A stretch of DNA of 35,697 bases from a virus: positions 1 through 35,697 of the IMG/VR virus record IMGVR_UViG_3300017987_000216. One strand, written 5' to 3'. The notes under the pieces are model-generated. The model was not told where the DNA came from. It worked only from the letters and a program-made list of their open reading frames with translations, and did no database searches. Below, piece by piece: positions 333 to 35,660 of the stretch. Numbering within the stretch: position 1 is the first letter of the stretch; the number at the start of each line of letters is the position of its first letter. Made by a program: the position numbers and the translations under genes.

Positions 333-408
333 ATTTATTGGCCACGGTGTCCGTTTTCGGACGGCACTTTGTCCAGTCCTAACGACATCGAGAATAAAGG
401 CGAAGACC

Positions 409-618
409 ATGGCAACGGACCGCGACAAGGAATTCCAGGCCATCCAGTTGCAGTTGATGTGCGTCATTGCTGGCAATCTCTCAGTGATCGCGAAAGCGAC
501 CGCCGCAACGTCGGACCGAGGAAGCCTAAGCGAAGAAGCAGAGAAAATATCGCAGGAAGGTTTCGCCGCCGCACTTCGCGCCCTGAATTGGTCACAAGAA
601 CACGACAACGAAGATTGA
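409..618 (+). CDS. Small hypothetical protein (69 aa)
   Basis: A 69-residue soluble protein with no family I recognise. It begins MATDRDKEFQ, is probably mostly helical (QAIQLQLMCVIAGNLSVIAK, then a Glu/Ala-rich second half) and ends in the acidic tail EHDNED. The ATG at 409 follows a purine-rich AAAGGCGAAG. The stop codon overlaps the ATG of the next small gene (TGATG at 616-620), which implies translational coupling. It is the first gene of the left, plus-strand early module. Its position, size and codon use support a real gene; its role is unknown. Confidence 0.55.
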   Translation: MATDRDKEFQAIQLQLMCVIAGNLSVIAKATAATSDRGSLSEEAEKISQEGFAAALRALNWSQEHDNED

Positions 619-746
619 TGGACACCAAAACGAACCCGAACAGCCGGCCGCTGTTCAGTAGTTGTTCGGCATGCGGACAGTCTATCCGCATACCGAACCG
701 GAAAAGGCCGAACCGTCAACGACTGACAACGCCAAACGATATTTGA
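618..746 (+). CDS. Tiny CxxC protein (42 aa)
   Basis: A 42-residue basic peptide coupled to the preceding gene by a TGATG overlap. Its centre reads CSACGQSIRIPNRKRP. A single CxxC knuckle followed by basic residues looks like half of a zinc ribbon and could bind metal as a dimer or bind nucleic acid. Only one Cys pair is visible, so metal binding is an inference. The short length limits confidence, but the exact stop/start overlap supports translation. Confidence 0.4.
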   Translation: MDTKTNPNSRPLFSSCSACGQSIRIPNRKRPNRQRLTTPNDI

Positions 747-799
747 CGGCCGCAGAATGGTCTGCAGTCGTGTTCAGTATTTCAGGTAGAGGCTGAATC

Positions 800-1231
800 G
801 TGTCTGAACAGATGCCAGTCCGACCAAATCCGAAACCGCTGTTGCTTGGCTGTCTATTGCCTGTTTGCCTGGCGGTTGGTGGTTGCTGGTTCTTCTTGCC
901 TGCAAAACCCAACGAACCGCCAGCGGAATATGGCACAGCTTCGCAAGCTGAAAAGGACAATCGAAGCAAGCAAATCACCGATCTGAAGACGAACGGCGTT
1001 TTGCTGAAATTCACAATCAGTACAAACCGCCGCAGTGCAGAACTGTTTGTGTTGCCGCCGTTCAAACTGCTGAACATCGACGAGAAGGCCGCAATTCTCC
1101 GTTTGTCCTACTTCCACATTTTCCAATTGTCAGAGCGGGTCACTAGCTACCCCGCTGAATTGTTTGTCCTGGACGGAATCAACGGCGAGTGGATCGACAC
1201 CGTAGACATCGATCGCCGTGGGTTTCACTGA
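800..1231 (+). CDS. Membrane-anchored or lipoprotein-like hypothetical protein (143 aa)
   Basis: The protein has a short basic N-terminus, one hydrophobic stretch (about residues 14-34) ending AVGGCWFF, and a soluble remainder of about 105 residues. The VGGC could be a loose lipobox at Cys29; otherwise it is a single membrane anchor with the rest outside the inner membrane. The domain after the anchor (FTISTNRRSAELFVLPPF onward) is not one I recognise. The chosen start is GTG 800, preceded by AGAGG; ATG 812 is an alternative. In temperate phages an envelope protein beside the repressor often alters the lysogen surface or excludes other phages. That role is only a positional suggestion here. 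Confidence 0.55.
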   Translation: MSEQMPVRPNPKPLLLGCLLPVCLAVGGCWFFLPAKPNEPPAEYGTASQAEKDNRSKQITDLKTNGVLLKFTISTNRRSAELFVLPPFKLLNIDEKAAILRLSYFHIFQLSERVTSYPAELFVLDGINGEWIDTVDIDRRGFH

Positions 1232-1265
1232 CGCCCAACCTTCCGCACTTTCAACAAACTTCCTT

Positions 1266-1283
1266 CGTACAGTATTGCATACG
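1266..1283. promoter_or_regulatory. Putative operator O1 over the XRE gene's ribosome binding site
   Basis: The 18-mer CGTACAGTATTGCATACG has self-complementary CGTA/TACG ends and abuts the GGAG ribosome binding site of the XRE gene. It matches about 14 of 18 bases of the arms of the inverted pair at 1538-1581. Three related copies bracketing an HTH gene are what an autorepressor's operators look like. Binding is inferred. Confidence 0.5.
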
Positions 1284-1294
1284 GAGCTAAAACA

Positions 1295-1525
1295 GTGAAA
1301 CATACCGCCATGAAGCGATTTATTGACAACGTGAAGACGATCATGGAATCACGCGGCCTAACTGTTCAAGAGGTTGCAGACTCCTGCGGAATGCGCCGCC
1401 CAAACCTCAGCGTCATATTGAACGGACGCGAAGGCGTAACGCTCGATCGTGCTGAGCGCATTGCCGAAGCACTCGACGTCGATCTGTCGGATTTGATTAG
1501 CAAACACCCGCTTGTCACCAGTTGA
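1295..1525 (+). CDS. XRE/Cro-CI family transcriptional regulator (76 aa)
   Basis: A single-domain helix-turn-helix DNA-binding protein. The pattern IMESRGLTVQEVADSCGMRRPNLSVILNGREGVTLDRAERIAEALDVDLSDLI matches the five-helix Cro/CI fold almost end to end, with the recognition helix at about MRRPNLSVILNG. At 76 residues it is nearly all HTH and lacks a CI-type peptidase or dimerisation domain, so it is closer to Cro or C-proteins. GTG 1295 follows GGAG; ATG 1310 is an alternative. A putative operator sits on its ribosome binding site and an inverted pair of similar sites lies just after its stop. It probably represses itself and perhaps the downstream integrase. Confidence 0.85.
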   Translation: MKHTAMKRFIDNVKTIMESRGLTVQEVADSCGMRRPNLSVILNGREGVTLDRAERIAEALDVDLSDLISKHPLVTS

Positions 1526-1537
1526 TCGAAAAAATAC

Positions 1538-1581
1538 CGTACTGAATCCCATACGCGGGTTGACGTATGGCATTCAGTACG
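1538..1581. promoter_or_regulatory. Inverted pair of operator-like 18-mers
   Basis: CGTACTGAATCCCATACG (1538-1555) and CGTATGGCATTCAGTACG (1564-1581) are inverted repeats with one mismatch in 18 bp and an 8-base spacer. Each arm resembles the site at 1266-1283. As RNA it would be a strong hairpin, but no U-run follows, which argues for a DNA-binding site rather than a terminator. TTGACG at 1560-1565 could be a -35 box buried in the pair, with only a weak -10. Confidence 0.55.
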
Positions 1582-1616
1582 CCACACTCCGCCCCCGCTG
1601 GCGGATTGATTCAACG

Positions 1617-1653
1617 CAGGCCGTCAGCTGAACCAGCTGGCGGCCTGTTTGCG
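1617..1653 (+). terminator. Rho-independent terminator-like hairpin
   Basis: CAGGCCGTCAGCTG (1617-1630) pairs with CAGCTGGCGGCCTG (1634-1647) across a 3-base loop. All 14 pairs form with one G-U. TTTGCGTTT follows. It would end transcripts coming from the XRE gene before the integrase leader. Confidence 0.6.
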
Positions 1654-1926
1654 TTTGCGATCACCGCCGCCAGCGTTGCGACGGAGTCGAAAGCGTGAAC
1701 CAGTCCAGGAAGCACAAACCGCACGACCAGCACCACCCGCAAAGTCAGCGGGCGGCCCACGGGAGTCGCGTTGCGTTCCATATTGGTCAGCGCTGTAAAC
1801 CGCTTACGGGTCCACAATTGGCCCGGCAGTGTGGAAAAACACTTTCCGCACGGATGCCCCGGGGACGACGCCCCCGGGTTGTTTGGGCACGACTGGCCCG
1901 GCCGTACCGTCAGAAAGGACTACGCC

Positions 1927-3090
1927 ATGATCGATTTCACGCAACAAGCGACCGCAGCCAGTTCCCTGAGCGAATTCTACGACTGGATTCAGCCCGAACT
2001 GCAGGCCCTGAACGCCGCCAAAACGCTCACCGCACACCGGGAATTTCTCAGCCACTGGATTCGCACCACCGGCGACCCGCCCCTGAATCAGATCAGTCGG
2101 GACGATTTGCAGATGTTCCGCGACGGGTTGCTGAACGGTACCTGGCAGAACAAACGCGGCCAAACGGTCAACGGCGTTTCGCCCCGCACGTTTCAGAAGC
2201 ACCACGGCACCTATCGGCAGTTGATGAAAGCGGCGCAGACTGTCGGCCTGATCGAATCGGTGCCGCAATTGTTCGTCACTCGCAAATCGGCGTTGACGCC
2301 CAGCGAAGCGGCCACCACGACCAAACCCGTTCGCGACATCATCGGGCCGGAAGAAATGCGGCGACTGTACCACGGGGCCGCGTTGTCGACTTGGCCGCTG
2401 AGATACCCGTCGGTGAATCCGCCGATACGAGGCCGACGATTCGGGCCGGACGAACGCGTGTTGCGTTGGCGAGCGGCTATCTATTTCGGCTGGTTGTACG
2501 GCGTTCGAATCAGCGACGCCTGCACATTGTCGGCCGACTGTTTCGACTTCACGCCACACGAACACGCGCCGCACGGCATGCTGGTATTCGCCCCGTGGAA
2601 AATTCGGCGCAAAGGCCGGTTGCAGGGTTTGCCACTGACCGCCACGGCCGCCGCGTTGGTCCGACGAATCACGCGCGGCCCGCGTTGCTTGTTCTGGTTC
2701 CTGCACGAAAACCGGGCCGGTTGCTGGAACAGCAGAAGGAAACGCTGGGAAAGCGGACATATCAAAGCGCTGCAGCTCGAAATCTGCGCGTCGCAGGGAA
2801 TCATCCCGACCACCGGGCCGAAGTCGCTCACACGTTCCGTCAAACAGCGGCGCGACGCGTTGCCCGGTTTGACGTACCACGTTTTCCGGCAGACGGCTGT
2901 CACTCAGTACAACGATTTTGCCACCAGCAGCGGCAGAGCGTTGGGCGACTATATCGTCGGGCATTCGTCTGGCACGGTCGCCGGCGAATCGTACGACAAG
3001 CCAGACGCGGCTGTTTGGCGAGCCATCGAAGCCCGCGACCGCGACCAGTTGCCGGAATGCTGGCGCGGACTGTTTGCCAATTTGAACTAA
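1927..3090 (+). CDS. int: Tyrosine recombinase / phage integrase (387 aa)
   Basis: Site-specific recombinase expected to integrate and excise the phage at its attachment site. The C-terminal catalytic domain shows the full residue set: Arg194 in LYGVRISDACTL, His318 and Arg321 in HVFRQTA, His346 in VGHSSG, and nucleophile Tyr356 in GESYDK, ten residues after His346. The N-terminal 120-150 residues fit a SAM-like core-binding domain (KTLTAHREFLSHWIRTT, then FQKHHGTYRQLMKAAQ). ATG 1927 is chosen because AGAAAGGA precedes it by 8 nt. The frame is open upstream, but that part reads as GC-rich leader. It is the likely partner of the tRNA-half attachment site at 286-332. The alternative is the second recombinase at 6858. 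Confidence 0.9.
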   Translation: MIDFTQQATAASSLSEFYDWIQPELQALNAAKTLTAHREFLSHWIRTTGDPPLNQISRDDLQMFRDGLLNGTWQNKRGQTVNGVSPRTFQKHHGTYRQLMKAAQTVGLIESVPQLFVTRKSALTPSEAATTTKPVRDIIGPEEMRRLYHGAALSTWPLRYPSVNPPIRGRRFGPDERVLRWRAAIYFGWLYGVRISDACTLSADCFDFTPHEHAPHGMLVFAPWKIRRKGRLQGLPLTATAAALVRRITRGPRCLFWFLHENRAGCWNSRRKRWESGHIKALQLEICASQGIIPTTGPKSLTRSVKQRRDALPGLTYHVFRQTAVTQYNDFATSSGRALGDYIVGHSSGTVAGESYDKPDAAVWRAIEARDRDQLPECWRGLFANLN

Positions 3091-3117
3091 CCGCACGGAA
3101 AGCGGTTTGCAGGGATG

Positions 3118-3200
3118 CCATCACCAGGGGCACGGTTGCCCCGTTTTCAATTCTCGCCGCCGGGATGTTCCCGGCACTCTCAGCGGGTCGGCGTTTTGTC
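3118..3200 (+). terminator. Terminator-like hairpins after the integrase
   Basis: GGGGCACGGTTGCCCC followed by GTTTTC (about 3127-3149) is a compact hairpin plus T-run. A second one, GCCGGGATGTTCCCGGC, follows at about 3160-3176. The first fits an intrinsic terminator for the integrase transcript; the second may belong to the leader of the next small gene. Confidence 0.55.
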
Positions 3201-3245
3201 TCAGCGCCGGCCCGTGTTTCGTTTCGATCCTGAAAGGATTCTTCC

Positions 3246-3515
3246 ATGATGATCAATGCCGAACGCTTCGACCATGTTCAACAGCTCATGCAGCGGTTGC
3301 CGCGTTTTTCGTGGTCGCTGCATGTGACTTCCGTCGGCTGGTCGTGCCGAATTTCGCACGACGCCACCTTGTGGGTGTACGTGTCGCCGGTGTTTGAACG
3401 AGTCGACCAGGCGGTCGAACACTTCAACGACAACGGCGAAGCCATCATCGAACGACAGCTGGCAAACTTTCACCCGGCTGTCGTCGATTCGCCCATTCCC
3501 GTGCCCGCCGTTTAG
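3246..3515 (+). CDS. Small hypothetical protein (89 aa)
   Basis: An 89-residue protein with a mixed alpha/beta look (RFSWSLHVTSVGWSCRISHDATLWVYVSPVF, then a helix FERVDQAVEHFNDNGEAIIERQL). I do not recognise the family. ATG 3246 follows GAAAGGA by 8 nt, the same leader type used by the integrase and the CsrA-like gene. It is the first of a run of small same-strand genes leading to the replication initiator. Codon use matches its neighbours. Confidence 0.65.
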   Translation: MMINAERFDHVQQLMQRLPRFSWSLHVTSVGWSCRISHDATLWVYVSPVFERVDQAVEHFNDNGEAIIERQLANFHPAVVDSPIPVPAV

Positions 3516-3563
3516 TTCATTCCCGCGCACGACTGCGCACCACCCACCCCGAAAGGATGCACA

Positions 3564-3887
3564 ATGCTTGTTCTGTCCCGCCACAAATCTCAGTCGATCA
3601 GTCTGGCCGACGGCCTGGTCGATGTGACCGTTGTCGAAACCCGCCCCGAAACCGTTCGCCTGGGAATAACGGCCCCGCGTTCGGTTCCCATTGTCCGTAC
3701 CGAACTGGCCGCCCGGCAGCACACCGCCGGCGATCCGGGCCGCTTCGTGTCGGCGGCCGAATGGCAGATCCTGCAACAGTTGGTCGCGACCGCAATCAAC
3801 GTCCAGCCGCGCAACGACCCGACGTTCATGTCCGAATTCCAGTTCAGTCTGGCCGACGCCTGTCGAGTCATGGACGCGCACCGATGA
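3564..3887 (+). CDS. csrA: CsrA-like RNA-binding regulator with C-terminal extension (107 aa)
   Basis: Residues 1-48 match CsrA/RsmA: MLVLSRHKSQSISLADG, then VRLGITAPRSVPIVRTEL. The residues important for RNA contact in known CsrA proteins are present: Leu4, Arg6 and an Arg at 45 (Arg44 of E. coli CsrA). CsrA dimers bind GGA motifs, often over ribosome binding sites, and control translation or mRNA stability. Normal CsrA is about 60-70 residues; this one has roughly 50 extra residues (AARQHTAGDPGRF... then SEFQFSLADACRVMDAHR), which may bind a partner or hold the dimer. ATG 3564 follows GAAAGGATG. The gene overlaps the next by 4 nt. Many genes here have GAAAGGA leaders, so the protein could regulate phage mRNAs, host mRNAs, or both (inference). 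Confidence 0.85.
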   Translation: MLVLSRHKSQSISLADGLVDVTVVETRPETVRLGITAPRSVPIVRTELAARQHTAGDPGRFVSAAEWQILQQLVATAINVQPRNDPTFMSEFQFSLADACRVMDAHR

Positions 3888-4216
3888 ATCGCGACGACCT
3901 GCCGTTGTCGGCGTATATCACCCCCACGGTCGAAAACGCACGCCGGGTTCTGGATGTCCTCGACCCGGTCTTCGACCGCGACCCGCTGCCGGAGTATGCG
4001 ACGCGTTCGCTGCGCTGGCAGCTGGTGAAACTACGAAACGCGCTGGACGGGGCGACCAGCGCCGTGCATTGGTTCGTCGGTCCCGACGCCGACCTGGCGG
4101 CCGCCGACCATGCGGATACCCTGCCGTGGTTGTTGCCGATGATTCAGCGCGCCCGCCGACACGATGCCGAACTCATTTCCAAACAGGACGGGAACCACCG
4201 CAATGAATCTCGATGA
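3884..4216 (+). CDS. Hypothetical protein (110 aa)
   Basis: Starts at the ATG inside an ATGA overlap with the CsrA-like gene's stop, so the two are translationally coupled. The protein looks helical and soluble: TVENARRVLDVLDPVFDRDPLPEYATRSLRWQLVKLRNALDGATSAVHWFVGPDADLAAADHADTLPWLLPMIQRARRHD. No family is recognised. Because it is coupled to CsrA it could be a partner of it, as FliW is for bacterial CsrA, but nothing in the sequence resembles FliW. The last 14 bases overlap the next gene. Confidence 0.65.
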   Translation: MNRDDLPLSAYITPTVENARRVLDVLDPVFDRDPLPEYATRSLRWQLVKLRNALDGATSAVHWFVGPDADLAAADHADTLPWLLPMIQRARRHDAELISKQDGNHRNESR

Positions 4217-4484
4217 TATGAGCGCAGCTGCTGACGGGGACGGGGTAGTTTACTTCGTGTTGCCGCCGCCGACCGGACGAGGCTACACGATGCGGCTTTT
4301 CGGCACCCACGGACCACGCGGCAACATCATTCGCCGAAACGTCATCACGGGCACGTCGCTGGTCGCCTTCGATCGTGCGGCCGTGCGGCGAGCGTGTGCA
4401 AAACTTCTCGCCGCCCGCCGCCGCTTCGACGACTTCCAGCGCAACCCGCAACCATGCCACGAACTGCAGGAAAAAAAATCATGA
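4203..4484 (+). CDS. Hypothetical protein (93 aa)
   Basis: Starts at ATG 4203, overlapping the previous gene's end by 14 nt. It begins MNLDDMSAAADG, has a beta-rich middle (GVVYFVLPPPTGRGYTMRLFGTHGPRGNIIRRNVITGTSLVAFDRAAV) and ends with a basic helix (RRACAKLLAARRRFDDFQ). No family is recognised. The stop TGA overlaps ATG 4481, a possible start of the replication gene, so the whole block from 3564 to 5898 is compact and probably co-transcribed. Confidence 0.6.
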   Translation: MNLDDMSAAADGDGVVYFVLPPPTGRGYTMRLFGTHGPRGNIIRRNVITGTSLVAFDRAAVRRACAKLLAARRRFDDFQRNPQPCHELQEKKS

Positions 4485-4519
4485 TCGATTCAACACTTCC
4501 CCGAAAGGAAACAACGACC

Positions 4520-5644
4520 ATGGAACCGGACGACCTGACCGCCGACTGGTTTGATTCGCATGTGCTGAGCGTCGCGAAATTCGACAGCGTGTTTATCAAA
4601 TCCGACTCGCGCAAAATCATGTCGAGAGACAAACAACTGCCGTGGGTATCGCTTCCCACCGGGTTCGAATCGCGTGGATACAATGACCTGGTCGATTCGT
4701 TTGATTGTTGGAAAGCGCAGGCTATTGGTAACTGTTTCAACGCGTTCGTCAATATGTCCACCAACCCGCCCGACTACGGTCAGTTGTCGCACAGCAACGG
4801 AGAACCGTTCAGCCTGTCGTATATGTGCCGTCGAGCCCAATTGGTGCCCGACTTGATTCAGCAAACGGTCGCCTGGGCGGTCAAAGCCGGATGGTTGATT
4901 GTCACGCCGGTCCTGTCCACAGCTGACGAAACGAGTCATCCCGACAGCGCCCCGACAGCGCCCCGACACCATCCCGACAGCGCCCCGACACCATCCCGAC
5001 ACCATCCCGACAGCGCCCCGACACCATCCCGACACCATCCCGCCTACGGTACGGTACGGTACGATACGATACACAACGGTACGGTACGGAACGGTACGGT
5101 ACGAGGAGAACCGAACCGAACCGAACCGAACGATTGTTTTGAGTCTCTCATCAGTCAGTCAGACAAGCTGCAGAAGCTGCAGTCGGTCACGCTCGACCCC
5201 GGGACGGCGAAACCGTTCGTTGGAAGCTGCGTGGCTGGCTTCACGACATCGGACGTGACGGACCGCGACAACGACTACTGGCTGACCTGGTACCGCAGAC
5301 AAACCGTTTCCGATTCGCCGATTCTGTCCGGCCGCAATCGGGCCGAACTGGCAATCGTGCTGGCGTTACTATCGGCGGTGCGCCGCCGAAAATGCAAAAC
5401 GACGAAGGTCGCGACGTTCGTCTATCAGCTCACACACGACAAAATCGGCATGATCAGCGAAAGCGACATCGAACGGGCCGTCGCGGCCGTGTCGAAACTG
5501 CTGGACGCCGCCCCGCCACCGGCCGCCCCACCCCAACCCCCGCCGTCGGCCAGCCGTCTACCCGAACCGACGGCCACAGCAAACGCCGGCCCCACGTTCG
5601 CGGAACGGCGAGCCCGACGCAGGAAACGAAAGGCGACCGCATGA
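4520..5644 (+). CDS. Putative replication initiator (lambda O-like arrangement) with internal iterons
   Basis: A protein of about 374 residues in three parts. The N-terminal 125 or so residues look like a winged-helix domain (LPWVSLPTGFESRGYNDLVDSF, a helical stretch, then QTVAWAVKAGWLIVTPV), as in phage primosome or initiator proteins. Then comes a low-complexity insert whose DNA is the repeat array 4940-5130, translating as repeats of HPDSAPTPSRH. A second helical domain follows (DNDYWLTWYRRQTV onward) and finally a Pro-rich, basic tail. Lambda O likewise carries origin iterons in the middle of its gene, so this is probably the initiator with the origin inside it. Family assignment is by architecture only. 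ATG 4520 follows CCCGAAAGGAA; ATG 4481, with AGGA and an ATGA overlap, is a good alternative that adds 13 residues. No helicase loader was seen nearby. Confidence 0.6.
   Translation: MEPDDLTADWFDSHVLSVAKFDSVFIKSDSRKIMSRDKQLPWVSLPTGFESRGYNDLVDSFDCWKAQAIGNCFNAFVNMSTNPPDYGQLSHSNGEPFSLSYMCRRAQLVPDLIQQTVAWAVKAGWLIVTPVLSTADETSHPDSAPTAPRHHPDSAPTPSRHHPDSAPTPSRHHPAYGTVRYDTIHNGTVRNGTVRGEPNRTEPNDCFESLISQSDKLQKLQSVTLDPGTAKPFVGSCVAGFTTSDVTDRDNDYWLTWYRRQTVSDSPILSGRNRAELAIVLALLSAVRRRKCKTTKVATFVYQLTHDKIGMISESDIERAVAAVSKLLDAAPPPAAPPQPPPSASRLPEPTATANAGPTFAERRARRRKRKATA
4940..5038. repeat. Nine tandem 11-bp iterons (candidate replication origin)
   Basis: Nine head-to-tail copies of CCCGACASCRY lie without gaps from 4940 to 5038. 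They alternate between CCCGACAGCGC (copies 1, 2, 4, 7) and CCCGACACCAT (copies 3, 5, 6, 8, 9). Eleven bp is close to one helical turn, so bound proteins would line one face of the DNA. Three units make 33 bp, so the repeat also encodes an 11-residue repeat in the initiator. This fits initiator-binding iterons inside the initiator gene. Confidence 0.75.
5046..5130. repeat. 5-bp-phased ACGGT/CCGAA array next to the iterons
   Basis: Seventeen pentamers run in register from 5046. Seven are ACGGT, with single-base or two-base variants (ACGAT, ACGGA, ACACA, ACGAG, GAGAA), and the last four are CCGAA. The array directly follows the 11-bp iterons and is the least GC-rich part of this stretch. It could be the strand-opening part of the origin or a second binding array. 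A similar 5-bp phase occurs at 139-188. Confidence 0.7.
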
Positions 5645-5898
5645 ACGATTCGACACAAACCTGCGACGGCTGCACGCATTATGACCCCCGGCACCACGAA
5701 TGCCGCGAATTGTTGGGCCGTCTGGCGTGCGAACCGTGCCGCGAATTGTGGTATGCCGTGAACGGCTTCGAATGTCCGGCGTGTGGGGACCGCTGCCGAA
5801 ACCTGAATCTGGCGGACGTCTCAGCGGGCCGCCCGAAACAGTGCCCCGGCTTCGAACACAAACCCAAAGAACCCGCGACACAACCGTCGCTCTTTTAA
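5641..5898 (+). CDS. Cys-rich zinc-finger-like protein (85 aa)
   Basis: Its ATG overlaps the initiator's stop (ATGA), so the two are coupled. Four CxxC or CxxxC-type pairs are visible: Cys8/Cys11, Cys30/Cys33, Cys45/Cys48 and nearby Cys21 and Cys52 (CDGCTHYD, CEPCRELW, CPACGDRC). This suggests a small zinc-binding protein with one or two ribbons. Small zinc proteins next to phage replication genes often bind DNA or protein, but no specific family is evident. The C-terminus (FEHKPKEPATQPSLF) looks disordered and resembles the short sliding-clamp-binding tails that end in SLF (speculative). Confidence 0.65.
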   Translation: MNDSTQTCDGCTHYDPRHHECRELLGRLACEPCRELWYAVNGFECPACGDRCRNLNLADVSAGRPKQCPGFEHKPKEPATQPSLF

Positions 5899-6066
5899 CG
5901 CTTCGGATCAACTAAGGAGAAAACAGAAATGGCCTGTGAGAAACATGGTGGGTTGTATCACACGAATTGCTTGGCATGTGACAGAGATGTTGCATCCGAT
6001 TGTTCCGGTGCGGATGACCGGCAATCGGATGTGGAGCGTAGCGAAAATCCGAAGCGTTCCGGCGAC
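5897..6066 (+). repeat. Palindromic mobile-like repeat, copy 1 (extends in-frame into a gene)
   Basis: Two linked repeat parts. AACGCTTCGGATCAACT (5897-5913) sits just after the previous stop. A 78-bp block at 5989-6066 differs from the block at 6545-6622 by one base. Inside the block CATCCGATTG (5993-6002) pairs with CAATCGGATG (6022-6031). ATCCGAAGCGTT (6047-6058) is the exact inverse of AACGCTTCGGAT (5897-5908), spanning the ribosome binding site and start of the gene at 5929. The transcript could therefore fold over its own start. Confidence 0.75.
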
Positions 6067-6453
6067 ATCCGGGTGAGACGCTTCGCGGGTTTTACTGATG
6101 AGCATCTGTCGCATGTGTACTCAGACATCATGTATGAATTAAGGTATAGACGGCAACGTGACAAGCGAGAACCGATGTCAGATAACCAAGGCGAACAAGT
6201 GGCTGATTTAGCCGCGCCCCGTTCAGCCGGCGCAGAGGCGGCGGAGTTGACTGAACTATACAAGGTGTTTCGTCGCAACATGGAAGCTGCGGAACGTCAG
6301 GGTGACGAGACTGACTCAGAGTCAATTTCGATCATTAAGACGATGGAGGCCAATATCTGGAACCGAGCAGCGTCACAAGTCCGTTTTTCGATGTCTCGCG
6401 TTTTAGCCGCCGGTGCTTCTCGTGTAGGAACACGAGAGGCCGAAGCCGGCTGA
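5929..6453 (+). CDS. Hypothetical protein with palindromic-repeat insert (174 aa)
   Basis: ATG 5929 follows TAAGGAGA. The N-terminus MACEKHGGLYHTNCLACDRD has three Cys and may bind metal. Residues about 21-46 (VASDCSGADDRQSDVERSENP and on) are encoded by the 78-bp repeat and reappear in the next gene, which is otherwise unrelated. The rest is charged and helical (ELTELYKVFRRNMEAAERQ... IIKTMEANIWNRAASQVRFSMSRVLAAG). No family is recognised. A hairpin CTCGTGT-AGGA-ACACGAG lies in the last codons (6419-6436). Codon use is less G/C-biased at third positions than in neighbouring genes, which hints at separate acquisition. Confidence 0.6.
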   Translation: MACEKHGGLYHTNCLACDRDVASDCSGADDRQSDVERSENPKRSGDIRVRRFAGFTDEHLSHVYSDIMYELRYRRQRDKREPMSDNQGEQVADLAAPRSAGAEAAELTELYKVFRRNMEAAERQGDETDSESISIIKTMEANIWNRAASQVRFSMSRVLAAGASRVGTREAEAG

Positions 6454-6622
6454 ACGCTTCGGATCAACTGGAGGAATCATGAACGACGTATTTGTAACTG
6501 GTTGTCAGTGGTGCCAGAGTTCGCCCTGCGAATGCAACAAGTCAGTTGCATCCGATTGTTCCGGTGCGGATGACCGGCAATCGGATGTGGAGCGTAGCGG
6601 AAATCCGAAGCGTTCCGGCGAC
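6453..6622 (+). repeat. Palindromic mobile-like repeat, copy 2
   Basis: Second copy of the arrangement at 5897-6066. AACGCTTCGGATCAACT (6453-6469) lies just before the ribosome binding site of the gene at 6479. The 78-bp block (6545-6622) is in frame in that gene. The two blocks are 77/78 identical, and the 12-bp inverted arms (6453-6464 with 6603-6614) are conserved. Such conservation between unrelated genes suggests recent spread or selection on RNA or DNA structure. Confidence 0.75.
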
Positions 6623-6757
6623 AACTGGCTAGACTCGGCAATTCATGAGATTCGGGAAGAAATGGGACAACTCAAAGCCGCATTGGTTTACCTGGAGGGG
6701 ATTCGGAAGAGTCGTTGCCGATCAAGCAATCTAGCAGAGGTCACTGAGGGACAGTGA
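6479..6757 (+). CDS. Hypothetical protein with palindromic-repeat insert (92 aa)
   Basis: ATG 6479 follows TGGAGG. The N-terminus MNDVFVTGCQWCQSSPCECNK has four Cys in CxxC and CxC spacing. The middle (residues about 22-49) is the repeat-encoded segment shared with the gene at 5929. The C-terminal part (IHEIREEMGQLKAALVYLEGIRKSR) is a likely coiled coil. No family is recognised. The two host proteins share a Cys-rich N-terminus but little else, so the shared middle is best explained by the inserted repeat. Confidence 0.6.
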   Translation: MNDVFVTGCQWCQSSPCECNKSVASDCSGADDRQSDVERSGNPKRSGDNWLDSAIHEIREEMGQLKAALVYLEGIRKSRCRSSNLAEVTEGQ

Positions 6758-6857
6758 CACTCCGTCGCCGGAACTTGTTTTTAGTGCGCGCTGGCCGGAG
6801 TGGGCGCGCTTTGTAATTACGCGACGGACGCGCGACACAATCGCGAAAGGGTCCGTT

Positions 6858-7847
6858 GTGGCTTTGAATTCTCAGCTTCTCGATCAGATCGGCGTCGTTT
6901 GCCGGCGCAAAGGACGGGCGCGCAGCACCTACAAAACGTACCGCCATTGGTGCGAACAGTATCTGCGCTGGCTTCGCAAACCCGACGGCACATGGACGCA
7001 TCCCAAAGACACGGCCGAACCGGAAGTGACCGGCTGGCTGACCGAACTGGCCAACCGCCGGAACGTGTCGCCCACGTCTCAAAATGTCGCCTTTCAGTCC
7101 GTGCTGTTCCTGTTTCGCGAAGTGATCGGCCGCGAATTGCACAACGTCCAGGCATTGCGAGCGAAACGGCCGCAACGAATCCCGACCGTGCTGTCCGTGC
7201 CGGAAGTCTCGCGACTGCTGGCAGAACTCAAAGGACGCGACCGCATTATCGGCCAGTTGCTGTACGGCTGCGGTATGCGCATCGGGGAAGCCGTTAGCCT
7301 GCGAATCAAAGATATCGACACAGACAGCCGACAGATTGTGATTCGCCAGGCCAAAGGAGCAAAGGACCGCGCCGTCGGCATGCCGTCCGCATTGCAGGAA
7401 CCATTGACGCACCAAATCGAAACCGCCGCCGCGTTGCATCGGCAGGACGTCGACGCCGGAACCAATCGCGTCGAACTGCCCTACAGTTACGGCCGCAAGT
7501 CGCCGACCGCCGCCGGTTCGCTGGCGTGGTTCTGGCTGTTCCCCAGTCATAAACTCAGCCGCCACCCCGTCGAGAAATGGATCGGACGCTATCACATTGA
7601 CAAAGGGAATTTCGCGCGTTCGATGAGACTGGCTGGACGGCGGGCCGGCATTCACAAACACTGCAACACGCATTGCCTGCGGCACAGCTACGCGACGCAT
7701 TCATTGAATCAGGGCGTCGACATTCGCAGCCTGCAGAAGTTGCTCGGACACAACGACGTCCGCACGACCATGATCTACACGCACGTTGAACTGGCAGGAG
7801 CCACCAGCGAACAAAGCCCGCTCGATCGGCTCCCCAACGCATCATAG
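6858..7847 (+). CDS. Integron-integrase-like tyrosine recombinase (329 aa)
   Basis: Second tyrosine recombinase, closer to the XerC/IntI group. Catalytic residues are visible: Arg141 in GCGMRIGEAVSL, His272 and Arg275 in HCLRHSYATH, His298 in LLGHNDV and Tyr307 in TTMIYTHV. Between the boxes it has an insertion with LAWFWLFPSHKLSRHPVEKWIGRYHID, like the extra region that marks IntI proteins (WQWVFPS... RRHH). The N-terminal 90 residues fit a core-binding domain (STYKTYRHWCEQYLRWLR). The GTG start at 6858 follows GCGAAAGGG. No attC-like cassette array was seen beside it. It may be a second integration or excision enzyme, a dimer resolvase, or a captured IntI. The gene is convergent with the late operon. 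Confidence 0.88.
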   Translation: MALNSQLLDQIGVVCRRKGRARSTYKTYRHWCEQYLRWLRKPDGTWTHPKDTAEPEVTGWLTELANRRNVSPTSQNVAFQSVLFLFREVIGRELHNVQALRAKRPQRIPTVLSVPEVSRLLAELKGRDRIIGQLLYGCGMRIGEAVSLRIKDIDTDSRQIVIRQAKGAKDRAVGMPSALQEPLTHQIETAAALHRQDVDAGTNRVELPYSYGRKSPTAAGSLAWFWLFPSHKLSRHPVEKWIGRYHIDKGNFARSMRLAGRRAGIHKHCNTHCLRHSYATHSLNQGVDIRSLQKLLGHNDVRTTMIYTHVELAGATSEQSPLDRLPNAS

Positions 7848-12838: not shown

Positions 12839-13218
12839 GGTTTCGCCTTTCCGTAGTTTACGCGTTGATTCCAGTCTTCCTGGCGTTCGGGGCAGCCGCA
12901 ATCTTCGCCGACCACCGCCTGCACGCGTTCTTTCGTGATGCCCACGGCCGCCAGTCCTTTCGCCACCGTGTCGCCCAGTCCGCGAGACACCACAGGAGCG
13001 GCCGCCTGCGGTTCCCAGCGGTGCGGGCATTCGCTGCAGACGTGCAGCTGCTGGCCCACGGCCCCCGCGTCGATCCCCGGGTTACCCGACAGGATCGCCG
13101 CGAACGATTCCACCGTCGGCGTGCAGGCCGCCGCCGGCACCGCCTGGCAATCGCATGCGAACACCGGCTGGCAACAGCTGGTCGATTCGCCCCGAAATTT
13201 GCACGCGTTATCCGTCAT
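12835..13218 (-). CDS. Cys-rich small protein of the tail module (127 aa)
   Basis: ATG 13218 is set by GGAGGCGTTTTG upstream and a TGATG overlap with the preceding gene's stop. The protein has many Cys: CCQPVFACDC near the N-terminus, CSECPHRW in the middle and CGCPE near the end, arranged as metal-binding knuckles. Another section (LGDTVAKGLAAVGITKERVQAVVGEDCGC) resembles a short helical repeat. It follows three large Cys-rich paralogues, so disulphide- or metal-rich proteins form a block here. Function is unknown; a structural role in the tail tip is the simplest reading. Confidence 0.65.
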   Translation of the reverse strand: MTDNACKFRGESTSCCQPVFACDCQAVPAAACTPTVESFAAILSGNPGIDAGAVGQQLHVCSECPHRWEPQAAAPVVSRGLGDTVAKGLAAVGITKERVQAVVGEDCGCPERQEDWNQRVNYGKAKP

Positions 13219-14411
13219 CAAAACGCCTCCAGAGTGAATTGATACGTGCCGCCGCCGGCATAGTTCACAATCTGCACGTTCGCACCGAACGGCGTGAAGT
13301 CGGCGTCGGCCCATTCCGCAACCGGCGCATAGGTTTCGGTACAGGGGGCACGGTAAGGCAGGTTCCCCACGTTCCCACAACCGAAACCGACTGTCGCCGA
13401 ATACCAGATGCGCCACAATTTCGTGTCAGGGCAAAACTTCAACTGATACTCACCTGCCTGGCAGTCAGCAAAACGCCATTCACAGGGATACGTCCCGTAA
13501 TACTCCAGAACGCCCGTGTCGTCGAAGAACCCCTGACCCGTGTCGATATCCTGTTCCGTGAATCGCCAGCGGAGCGGCAGTACGTCGCTGTGCTGCGACC
13601 CCCCAAAACAATTCGACACCAGATAACGGCGCGCAGGAGTCAAACAAACTTCCTCCCCGCAAATCGTGCAGGCCCGGTCGTGGATCGGCGTTGCCCCTTC
13701 GTCGATGTCGAACCGTTGAGCGCACCAGCGGTCAGCATCGAACGCGTTTCGAGTGTAACGGGCGACCATGCCTTCGACCGAATGTTCGGCCGTCAACACG
13801 CCGCCGGGCGTCAGCGACCACGACAACGTGCTTTCGTCTCCACAGTCGACCGCGTCGCTCGTCCATTCATCCGCGTCGGGGTCGCGTGTGAGAACCCCAG
13901 CGCCGGTCCCGCAGCACGACAACGATGGCCCGGCCAGTTGGTACGTCACGGGTTCCAGTCCATCGCCCCAGTCGTACGCCGGCCAGTCGTCGGATTCGTA
14001 ACAGCCGCAGCACGTCGACGCCGGCGTGCCGCTGCTGGTCGTGTCGGTCGAACTGCCGGTGCCCGGCTGCAGCACCACCAGCCCCAGATTCCCCACGATT
14101 TCCGCGAACAGCCGCGTCGGTTCGTCGCCGCTGCCGGCCGCAATCGCCGCCGCCGTGATCTTCCGCACGTCCACGGGTTGCACAAACGCCCATTCGCTGC
14201 CGTTCCACGTCACTTGCCGGGCGGCGTGCGGTTTGTAGTCGTCTTCCGGCAGGTCGGTCAGCAGTTCCACCACCACACCCCGGGCGGCCGTCGCATCATC
14301 CCGCTGGCCCGCCGTCCCGCCGCTCACCGTGCCCAGCACGATGCCCGTCGCTTTGTTGATATCCCGCGCTTGCTCCCGCCCGAAACCGTAAACCGTGTTA
14401 TCGTTCGTCAT
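13218..14411 (-). CDS. Cys-rich tail-associated paralogue C (397 aa)
   Basis: Third of three tandem paralogues in transcription order. The N-terminal about 105 residues are nearly shared with the other two (YGFGREQARDINKATGIVLGTV, RKITAAAIAAGSGDEPTRLF). Then come a Thr/Ser-rich linker and CCGCYE, where the conserved Cys-rich part begins. The C-terminal 200 residues are divergent (WRFTEQDIDTGQGFFDDTG...). The N-terminal part is probably the virion-anchoring piece and the C-terminal part a variable exposed domain, as in duplicated adsorption or tail-tip proteins. No family name can be given. Stop/ATG overlap with the next gene shows coupling. Confidence 0.7.
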   Translation of the reverse strand: MTNDNTVYGFGREQARDINKATGIVLGTVSGGTAGQRDDATAARGVVVELLTDLPEDDYKPHAARQVTWNGSEWAFVQPVDVRKITAAAIAAGSGDEPTRLFAEIVGNLGLVVLQPGTGSSTDTTSSGTPASTCCGCYESDDWPAYDWGDGLEPVTYQLAGPSLSCCGTGAGVLTRDPDADEWTSDAVDCGDESTLSWSLTPGGVLTAEHSVEGMVARYTRNAFDADRWCAQRFDIDEGATPIHDRACTICGEEVCLTPARRYLVSNCFGGSQHSDVLPLRWRFTEQDIDTGQGFFDDTGVLEYYGTYPCEWRFADCQAGEYQLKFCPDTKLWRIWYSATVGFGCGNVGNLPYRAPCTETYAPVAEWADADFTPFGANVQIVNYAGGGTYQFTLEAF

Positions 14412-15740
14412 TCAACCGCCCCCCAGAAACACGGGAACAATTGTCACCGCACCGCCAAACGTCGTGGCGGGCGGTCCGAACCCGTCCGGGTCGGAAATGA
14501 CAGAATGCGAATAACCCAGCTGCAGCGGGTTGTCGGTTTCAACACAGGGATACTGGCCGACAGCGTAGGCCGTGTTCGTGAAGAAGTGCCGCGCATAGCC
14601 GTTTTCGTAACTGTATTTGAACACCACGGACAATTCGCTGAAGTCCACGATTTGCATCGCGTCGTTCACTTTGCCCAGGTACAGCGCCGCATGAAACGGC
14701 CCCGTGAAAATGTTGATTGGCGTCGCAAACTGCCCGGTGTTGTGGTCCCAAACAACGTCATAATGATTCAACGGGTCCTTCCGGCACCCAGCACCGGGCA
14801 AACCCTGAGACGCCACCAGCGTCGTGCCGTTGAAAAATTCGGCCGCCGGCCCGTTCGCCCCGCTATACCGTAACTCATACGCCCCCGAATGTTCCAGATT
14901 CACGCAGGCCGGACACCCGAACAGCGTCTGCGGTTCCCCGTTCGCCGGGACGACGCAGACTTCGGGCGCACAAACCACGCAGTCGCGGCCGTGTCGCGGC
15001 GTCGTGCTTTCGTCCAGTAGAAACCGCTGAGCGCAAAGACTGTCCAACGCGTCCGGCGCGACCGTGTACCGTGCCAGCAGTCCGTCGGTCTGATGTGTGA
15101 TCGTCAGCACGCCGTCGGGCGTCAGCCTCCAATCGGTCAGCCCGTGGTCAACATCGCCCACGTTGATACACGCCACGTCGGACGCGACCCAGTCGCCCGC
15201 GTCCAGTTCCTGCCGTTCCAGAATCGGATTCGTCACAAGGGAACAGCATTCGAGAGACACGCCGGAAACACTGCGCAGATACGGCTGGCCGGAATACGTT
15301 TGGTAGTCGGTTTCTTCGTAGCAGCCACAACAGCCCGTCGTCACCGTCGCACCCGGCGCGTCGGTCGTGGTCGTGGTCGTTTCCCCGGCGGGCGGTTGGC
15401 TGACCACCAGCCCCAGATTCCCCACAGGATTCGCGAACAGCCGCGTCGGGTCGTCGGCGCTGCCGGCCGCAATCGCCGCCGCCGTGATCTTCCGCACGTC
15501 CACGGGTTGCACAAACGCCCATTCGCTGCCGTTCCAGTTCACCTGCCGGGCGGCGTGCGGTTTGTAATCGTCGGCCGGCAGCTCCGTAATCAGTTCCACC
15601 ACAATCGAACGCGCCGCCGTGGCCGTTTCCCGCACCCCCGCACGACCCCCGCCGACCGTGCCCAGCACGATGCCCGTCGCTTTGCTGATATCCCGCGCTT
15701 GCTCCAGCCCGAAACCGTACGCCGTGTTGCTGTCAGTCAT
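14412..15740 (-). CDS. Cys-rich tail-associated paralogue B (442 aa)
   Basis: Second paralogue, with the same N-terminal domain (YGFGLEQARDISKATGIVLGTV, NGSEWAFVQPVDVRKITAAAIAAGS), a Thr-rich linker (ETTTTTTDAPG) and CCGCYEE. Paired Cys positions similar to the neighbours follow (CVVCAPEVC, LFGCPACVNLEHSGAYELRYSG). The C-terminal domain differs (YLGKVNDAMQIVDFSELSVVF onward). The block GCPACVNL...YELRYSG-NGPAAEFFNGTTLV is shared with copy A (GCQICTDN...YEVVVSGMDGPVADYFNGATLV), so A and B are closer to each other than to C. The late position suggests an exposed tail component. Confidence 0.7.
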   Translation of the reverse strand: MTDSNTAYGFGLEQARDISKATGIVLGTVGGGRAGVRETATAARSIVVELITELPADDYKPHAARQVNWNGSEWAFVQPVDVRKITAAAIAAGSADDPTRLFANPVGNLGLVVSQPPAGETTTTTTDAPGATVTTGCCGCYEETDYQTYSGQPYLRSVSGVSLECCSLVTNPILERQELDAGDWVASDVACINVGDVDHGLTDWRLTPDGVLTITHQTDGLLARYTVAPDALDSLCAQRFLLDESTTPRHGRDCVVCAPEVCVVPANGEPQTLFGCPACVNLEHSGAYELRYSGANGPAAEFFNGTTLVASQGLPGAGCRKDPLNHYDVVWDHNTGQFATPINIFTGPFHAALYLGKVNDAMQIVDFSELSVVFKYSYENGYARHFFTNTAYAVGQYPCVETDNPLQLGYSHSVISDPDGFGPPATTFGGAVTIVPVFLGGG

Positions 15741-17065
15741 GCGTCCAGCCCCACGCTAACGGGTCGAAGGATCACCGAATCCGGGAACGTCGTCGGCGGC
15801 GGAGTCGGGTTTGTCGGCTGGTTGTTGGCAATCGCCGTCAGCGGAAATTCGATTTCGTCGGCCAGACACGGATGTTCCGTGCCCATGAACAGTTGATAGC
15901 TGGCTTCCATTAAATTCGAAAACCCGGTCGCGTGGTATGTATACGTGAGATATACAGCCATGTTGGCCTGGCCGCCGTTGCCCGTGCCGTTCAGAGCCAT
16001 CCAGATGTGCCCCCCAAACTGCGGCGAAACGACTTCAAAGTCGATAATGTCTGGGTCTGGGTTGACGTAGTGAACGACTGAACGCGGCACGTACGGAAAC
16101 CGCCGGCATTCGTAATACCCCTGACCGCCCAATAACTGCGTTACCAACGTGGCCCCGTTGAAATAATCAGCGACCGGCCCGTCCATTCCACTGACAACCA
16201 CCTCATACGCTTTCGCCGCCTGGTTGTCTGTGCAGATCTGACACCCGGAAACAATTTCCGGCGGGTCGTCCAGCGGGTACGGCGTCACGCACGCCTGCTC
16301 GCCACAAACCACACAATCGCGACGCAACGCGGCGGCCGTGCGGTCGAACCGCAAATTGCAAAACAGGTCGACGCCCGCGTCGTACGTGTTGCGATCAAAC
16401 TGGGCGACCTGGCCGAATTCCGAATGTGTGGCCGTCAGCGTTTCAACGCCCGGGTCCAGTTGCCACAGAATCGTAGCCCCGTCTGCACAGCCCTGCACAG
16501 CTTCCCACTGCACACCGTTCGGAATCGCCCGCTGCAGGTCCAGATATCCCGCTTCGTTGGCGCAACACGCCAACGAAACCCCGGACACGCGAAACACGCG
16601 AGGCAGGTTTTCGCCGTCGTAGTTGTAATAGTTGACCGTTTCCGGGTCGTTACACCCGCAACAGTCCCCGGATGTGCCACCGATCACCGTGGTCGACGGT
16701 TCGCCCGCCGGTTCGCCCACACACCACCCCAGATTCGCAATCGGTCGAGCTTTCAGCCGCGTCGGGTCGTCGGCGCTGCCGGCCGCAATCGCCGCCGCCG
16801 TGATCTTCCGCACCGGAACCGGACGCGTCGACACCGGCACCCATTCGCTGCCGTTCCACGTCACTTGCCGGGCGTCGTGCAGTTCGTAATCGTCGGCCGG
16901 GAGCTCCGCCAGCAGTTCCACCACAATCGAACGCGCCGCCGTGGCCGTTTCCCGCACCCCCGCACGCCCCCCGCCGACCGTGCCCAGTACGATGCCCGTC
17001 GCTTTGTTGATATCCCGCGCTTGCTCCAGCCCGAAACCGTACGCCGTGTTGCTGTCGCCCGTCAT
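15737..17065 (-). CDS. Cys-rich tail-associated paralogue A (442 aa)
   Basis: First of the three in transcription order. Its stop overlaps the start of copy B by 4 nt. It shares the N-terminal domain (SNTAYGFGLEQARDINKATG... RKITAAAIAAGSADDPTRLKARPIANLGW), then a short linker and CCGCND. The paired-Cys section CVVCGEQAC/CQICTDNQ matches copy B. The C-terminal domain (IWMALNGTGNGGQANMAVYLTYTYHATGF) is beta-rich. A 38-bp stretch encoding part of the shared domain is identical in all three copies (16776-16813, 15460-15497, 14131-14168), which points to recent duplication or gene conversion. The function in the virion is not known. Confidence 0.7.
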   Translation of the reverse strand: MTGDSNTAYGFGLEQARDINKATGIVLGTVGGGRAGVRETATAARSIVVELLAELPADDYELHDARQVTWNGSEWVPVSTRPVPVRKITAAAIAAGSADDPTRLKARPIANLGWCVGEPAGEPSTTVIGGTSGDCCGCNDPETVNYYNYDGENLPRVFRVSGVSLACCANEAGYLDLQRAIPNGVQWEAVQGCADGATILWQLDPGVETLTATHSEFGQVAQFDRNTYDAGVDLFCNLRFDRTAAALRRDCVVCGEQACVTPYPLDDPPEIVSGCQICTDNQAAKAYEVVVSGMDGPVADYFNGATLVTQLLGGQGYYECRRFPYVPRSVVHYVNPDPDIIDFEVVSPQFGGHIWMALNGTGNGGQANMAVYLTYTYHATGFSNLMEASYQLFMGTEHPCLADEIEFPLTAIANNQPTNPTPPPTTFPDSVILRPVSVGLDA

Positions 17066-35574: not shown

Positions 35575-35620
35575 GTTCCAGCAGCGGCGCGAACCCGTCA
35601 CAGTTCAATCCTGCGCCCCG

Positions 35621-35660
35621 GTTACCCGCAGTTACCCGCAGTTACCCGCAGTTACCCGGG
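35621..35660. repeat. Tandem 10-bp repeats GTTACCCGCA
   Basis: Three perfect copies of GTTACCCGCA (35621-35650) and a fourth, GTTACCCGGG (35651-35660), are in direct tandem. The 10-bp period is one helical turn, as in operator or iteron arrays. Confidence 0.75.

Follow-up and report, generated by a model that had tools for sequence, protein, structure and literature searches.

Why do two neighbouring small genes of a phage, coding for unrelated proteins, begin with nearly the same palindromic DNA? The window, a 35.7-kb viral contig analysed at its full length (35,697 nucleotides; IMG/VR record IMGVR_UViG_3300017987_000216), codes for a terminase, a portal protein, a head protease, and head and tape-measure proteins, as well as for a phage-type integrase (1771-3090). 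Sequence comparison confirmed what a preliminary description of this DNA had reported, namely that two small genes share a 78-bp block (5989-6066 and 6545-6622; 77/78 identical, one mismatch) and an upstream 17-bp repeat, AACGCTTCGGATCAACT (5897-5913 and 6453-6469). Both inverted pairs claimed for each copy were located as well: the exact 12-bp pair AACGCTTCGGAT/ATCCGAAGCGTT at 5897-5908/6047-6058 in copy 1 and at 6453-6464/6603-6614 in copy 2, where it extends to 13 bp, and the internal 10-bp pair CATCCGATTG/CAATCGGATG at 5993-6002/6022-6031 and 6549-6558/6578-6587, respectively. A perfect inverted arm of at least 12 bp did not appear in any of 500 dinucleotide-preserving shuffles of the element. 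Compared with shuffled sequences, the bottom-strand DNA fold of 5890-6072 has a z-score of -3.7, and RNA folding of the two copies, as proposed in the preliminary description, gave z-scores of -2.3 and -2.6. Conservation begins exactly at AAC in both copies, the A of which also forms part of the stop codon of the preceding ORF. The spacers between the 17-mer and the block are unlike in the two copies, each containing a Shine-Dalgarno sequence, an ATG and an in-frame Cys-rich stretch. Similarity between the bodies of ORF 1 and ORF 2 was undetectable at both protein and DNA level; the proteins are thus otherwise different, as had been noted, and a simple whole-length duplication is ruled out.

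A likely answer lies in the next gene after the repeats. Its product scores 343.2 bits against TIGR02249, the NCBI curated model (cut-off 265), also matches Pfam PF00589, and is therefore an integron integrase (IntI). Judging from the sequence, the two palindromes are probably attC sites belonging to a small integron in the genome of a tailed phage, with the Shine-Dalgarno sequence and ATG within each of them starting the ORF of the next cassette (Table 1). We read 5897-6058 and 6453-6614 as attC because IntI adjoins them and because a third copy of the element (L029, see below) sits in a bounded attC array. For site 1, this agrees with the complementarity of R'' and R' and with the coincidence of the conservation edges with core sites. 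The assignment leans on L029 and on a second phage, L026, the window array being too short for a stand-alone call; taken by itself, the inner stem score (8.5 in copy 1, 10.5 in copy 2 and 11.5 in L029) is not outstanding compared with the rest of the window, and the inner attC alone, folded as single-stranded DNA, has no significant z-score. No attI was recognised in the window by eye. The nearest relative of the window IntI, with 58% identity, is encoded in L026, a phage record that likewise codes for terminase, portal and head proteins. When the two were placed in a tree together with 30 planctomycete IntI sequences, they formed a separate lineage on a long branch, and a profile search for further phage IntI retrieved a few weaker relatives, none of them with a linked attC array. 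Both phage genes (window 6858-7847, L026 8001-8987) are about 40% identical to planctomycete IntI and lie just downstream of their own cassettes, in the same direction.

Table 1. Coordinates of the features assigned to the putative window integron and of the L026 ORFs predicted to start within attC sites
Feature	Position	Strand	Remarks
attC-like site 1	5897..6058	+	162 nt, from R'' AACGC at 5897 to outer R' GCGTT at 6058; putative embedded translation start
R''/L'' half AACGCTTCGGATCAACT	5897..5913	+	overlaps stop TAA of upstream ORF (5896-5898)
Shine-Dalgarno AAGGAG (5914-5919) and ATG (5929-5931) within attC 1	5914..5931	+	
Inner L'/R' half TGTTGCATCCGATTGTT	5988..6004	+	L' pairs with TCGGATCAAC, one extra base; R' TTGTT
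54-nt in-frame insert	6005..6058	+	one arm and loop of the 10-bp hairpin; ends in outer R' half ATCCGAAGCGTT
ORF 1, 174 aa	5929..6453	+	predicted start inside attC 1; core site at about codon 43; fills cassette 1
attC-like site 2	6453..6614	+	anatomy as in site 1
Shine-Dalgarno GGAGG (6470-6474) and ATG (6479-6481) within attC 2	6470..6481	+	
ORF 2, 92 aa	6479..6757	+	predicted start inside attC 2; core site at about codon 45; runs into cassette 2
Cassette 2	6612..6774	+	start GTTCCGGCGAC (outer R'); end R'' GTCGCCGGAAC at 6764-6774, 11-bp boundary palindrome
Integron integrase gene (IntI)	6858..7847	+	TIGR02249, Pfam PF00589; downstream of cassettes, co-directional
L026 ORF	from 1317		predicted start in attC 1213-1376; crosses core
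L026 ORF	from 4305		predicted start in attC 4247-4362; crosses core
L026 ORF	from 7479		predicted start in attC 7418-7534; crosses core

Across the public collections searched, the element was found outside the window in IMG/VR only, in two records (L003 and L004) of one phage region with terminase, portal and tail genes, which supplies the further copy that the preliminary description had proposed to look for by a genome search with the 78-bp block. Scans of viral contigs with an exact 38-mer and a 20-mer core returned L003/L004 only, the block gave nothing beyond short chance matches in 392 Planctomycetota genomes, the GTDB contig collection, phages and plasmids yielded no element, and Rfam had no match to it. 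Matches to the 17-mer (17 in genome contigs and L005 in viral contigs) were discarded as chance, the block being absent from them; the pattern CAACAGAGGCGATTGTT, derived from L026 attC sites, matched elsewhere a RecT-like gene and unrelated DNA, and had no match in the 392 genomes. The third copy (L003/L029) consists of 17-mer, spacer and block as in the window, follows a methyltransferase cassette and lies within a phage array of ordinary attC sites. This array is CALIN-like, so labelled because no integron integrase passes the cut-off in the L003 and L004 records. The copy starts exactly at an R'' core, where it overlaps a stop codon, and its other edge is an R' core, the bases after which are the reverse complement of the R'' of the following cassette; such edges are the signature of a cassette boundary.

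The element has the same order in the window and in L029: R''/L'', AACGCTTCGGATCAACT, and then L'/R', AGTTGCATCCGATTGTT, with one extra base. The inner pair TCGGATCAACT/AGTTGCATCCGA displays the complementary L''/L' halves and extrahelical bases expected of an attC site, with an additional C separating AAC from TTGTT, and its R', TTGTT, agrees with the grammar of the neighbouring attC sites; TTGTT is also the R' in all 12 attC sites upstream of intI in L026. The inner R' is followed by 54 nt more, which end in a second, perfectly complementary half, ATCCGAAGCGTT. Unusually, the 12-bp R stem of the outer pair is perfect and lacks the unpaired spacer normally present at its centre. The 54-nt insert resembles a micro-cassette (TTCCGGT...ACCGGCAA, TCGGAT...ATCCGA) or else a hairpin inserted at this place. 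With attC sites located by a home-made scan, boundaries were tested by comparing the bases after GTT at a cassette's start with the reverse complement of those before AAC at its end. Links of this kind numbered 10 on the coding versus 0 on the other strand in L026, and 7 versus 0 in L029. Beyond the GTT of the outer R', the match extends over 8 bases in window cassette 2 and in L029 and over 10 at L026 1376, against 4, 4 and 1 (L026 1213-1376) beyond that of the inner R'. Because the palindrome is longer there, the outer GCGTT appears the likelier boundary and the inner TTGTT was set aside, although which R' is used is uncertain. Boundary palindromes are thus found in window cassette 2, in L029 and in L026. 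In cassette 1 (6058-6453) the palindrome is absent (1 base), the test failing at both R'; one guess is that the start of this cassette was gene-converted from site 2. The TGA stop of ORF 1 overlaps the R'' of attC 2. The L026 array itself (381-7809; 12 attC sites) belongs to a 45.8-kb phage and includes a DNA methyltransferase cassette. It contains a second site with two R' candidates, at 1213-1376, where the 14 bases that open R''/L'', AACGCCTCGGTCAA, are matched by a perfect complement lying 150 nt downstream, past an ordinary inner attC end.

This anatomy bears on two readings that do without an integron. Rickettsia palindromic elements lie in frame within genes, to which they add a peptide and a fold at once, and the preliminary description had likened the element to them. 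On such a reading, an RPE- or MITE-like coding palindrome would have inserted in frame into two genes. The element does fold well, and its 54-nt part (6005-6058) is in frame, contributes to a hairpin and lies between the copies of a 6-bp direct repeat, ATCCGA; an insertion of this type could have been the origin of the insert within attC. As an account of the whole element, we nevertheless regard it as very unlikely: the outer edges are integron cores with boundary palindromes at the element's end, no element-free homologue was found, nor any homologue of the ORF bodies at all, and no more copies exist in the window, the 392 Planctomycetota genomes, phages or plasmids. Unlike the Rickettsia elements, it has the edges and neighbours of an integron, and no insertion of it into otherwise conserved genes was observed. 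Hence a mobile-type palindrome adding a peptide and a fold survives from the earlier comparison; its insertion into pre-existing genes is unsupported, the edges being cores and IntI adjoining. Nor is the element a dispersed multicopy family in this genome, with two copies in the record, one in another phage (seen in two records) and none elsewhere in the collections searched. Alternatively, the repeats might be the conserved 5' ends of a small gene family, left by duplication or gene conversion and forming a regulatory mRNA stem across the ribosome binding site. The stem brackets the start region in the RNA folds, and cassette 2 and the L029 ORF have starts and C-terminal ends in common, the two cassettes resembling each other at both start and end. 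Such a family, however, should not have unrelated bodies in ORF 1 and ORF 2, at protein as well as DNA level, nor unrelated start-codon spacers between flanks that are 17/17 and 77/78 identical, and it leaves unexplained the complementarity of the pre-AAC bases to cassette starts, all of which makes it extremely improbable.

Returning to the integron, an unusual trait of these attC sites is the translation start that they seem to contain. An ATG preceded by a Shine-Dalgarno sequence (AAGGAG in window site 1, GGAGG in site 2 and AGGAG in L029) stands between the two halves, and from it no stop codon interrupts the frame, which crosses the core site and extends as far as the next cassette's end. 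The stretches from ATG to block are unrelated among these three copies and encode 3-4 Cys each in 20, 22 and 22 codons, in frame. Three attC sites of L026, unrelated in sequence to those of the window, also carry a Shine-Dalgarno sequence and an ATG, with an ORF through the core. A bacterial case was found in an array of at least nine attC sites on a Planctomycetota chromosome (L110, genome G311): on the reverse strand (4585-4886), an attC of canonical length (84 nt) holds AAGGA and an ATG whose ORF (MTDTKSDAECSAACDC, then STDG...) extends across the core and terminates at the R'' that follows. The start-bearing share is 2/2 in the window, 1/4 in L029 and 3 of about 12 in L026, versus 1 (that of L110) among the roughly 55 linked attC sites sampled at planctomycete loci; such sites are rare in the planctomycete loci sampled and common in the phage arrays. 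No start-bearing read-through attC turned up on the control strand of the surveyed loci. The core is read in the same phase in three of the four attC families.

From the integrase, core sites and boundary palindromes we infer recombination of these sites by IntI, and from the Shine-Dalgarno/ATG pairs and open frames a translation start inside attC. R''/L'' (the 17-mer) and L'/R' (in the 78-bp block) would fold on the bottom strand, which would let the neighbouring IntI cleave at the R' core and mobilise the cassettes. Translation would start inside the attC of one cassette and continue without a stop through the core into the next, which would gain a start plus about 45 N-terminal residues, made up of the variable Cys-rich stretch and the nearly fixed VASDCSGADDRQSDVERSGNPKRSGD. 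Under the integron reading, the element's fold would be the one that single-stranded DNA adopts for recombination; in mRNA, this pairing may influence ribosomes too, an effect known from attC hairpins (PMC8876359). The sites could instead be real attC sites whose embedded ATG ORFs are incidental, or short leaders acting by termination-reinitiation, with the proteins starting inside the cassettes. Short attC ORFs and the attI1 ORF-11/ORF-18 that aid downstream translation have been described (PMC8876359), and ORF 1, ORF 2 and the L029 ORF do have internal ATGs. Yet the frames are open from attC to cassette stop in 6/6 phage cases and in the bacterial one, a Shine-Dalgarno sequence precedes the attC ATG in every case, the three differing spacers of the window family all remain in frame and Cys-rich, and the cassette after L026 1213-1376 has no in-frame internal ATG or GTG, only a late TTG. 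On balance, we find incidental or leader ORFs unlikely.

Integrons in phages, the ORF-11 of attI1 and short attC-internal ORFs have all been described before. Qi et al. 2023 (PMC9892861) described phage integrons and CALINs (in Vibrio, E. coli P1 and Shewanella cases) with IntI and attC arrays, methyltransferase cassettes and some attC sites recombined by IntI1. The window likewise combines IntI and attC in a phage, but its IntI belongs, with that of L026, to a separate phage lineage and lies downstream of the array and co-directional with it, and its attC sites carry a start codon. ORF-11/ORF-18 have their Shine-Dalgarno sequence and ATG in attI1 and overlap the recombination point; they end within the 5' end of the cassette, work by coupling and serve the first cassette only (PMC8876359). 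In contrast, the window start sits in attC and its ORF would be the cassette's own reading frame. Short attC ORFs share initiation inside attC, followed in their case by termination and reinitiation (PMC8876359, section 3.2), whereas the window ORF would form the N-terminus of the next cassette's protein. In blaGES-1/aacA4 fused cassettes, attC is lost, the cassettes are inseparable at that point, and expression is joint, from upstream signals (PMC4670013); two cassette pieces would be expressed together in the window as well, with attC kept. In the open-licence literature, we found no description of an attC supplying the start and N-terminus of the next cassette. The earlier remark that the element has no name thus fails if it is an attC site, and holds for an attC carrying a translation start, which is unnamed.

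More tentatively, and with somewhat more doubt than confidence, we suggest that start-bearing attC sites form a class in phage integrons and at least one planctomycete integron, and that integrons use them to assemble chimeric proteins combinatorially. The ribosome binding site and N-terminal segment of such an attC, the latter often Cys-rich and perhaps zinc-binding, would be joined in frame to whichever start-less cassette comes next. In the usual view, cassettes are self-contained genes with a purely recombinational 3' attC. If attC does provide the next cassette's start and N-terminus, starts as well as boundaries are placed wrongly by gene callers and integron finders, and shuffling could give integrons a way to make fusion proteins. 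In addition, the finding suggests that phages have an IntI lineage of their own, with its own cassette arrays.

Several other features were observed along the way. A cassette at L003 2500-2760 has a seemingly tRNA-like sequence and no long ORF. Upstream of the window element, a long ORF (4394-5644) includes, at 4926-5112, 11-bp tandem repeats CATCCCGACA/CGCCCCGACA and, after them, 10-bp repeats ACGGTACGGT; together these may be an iteron region of the origin type. The minus strand of 13218-17065 carries three tandem paralogous genes of about 1.3 kb each, the start regions of which are 60-84% identical (300-nt repeat D1). Finally, a short tandem repeat, CCGCAGTTAC, lies at 35616-35655, close to the contig end.
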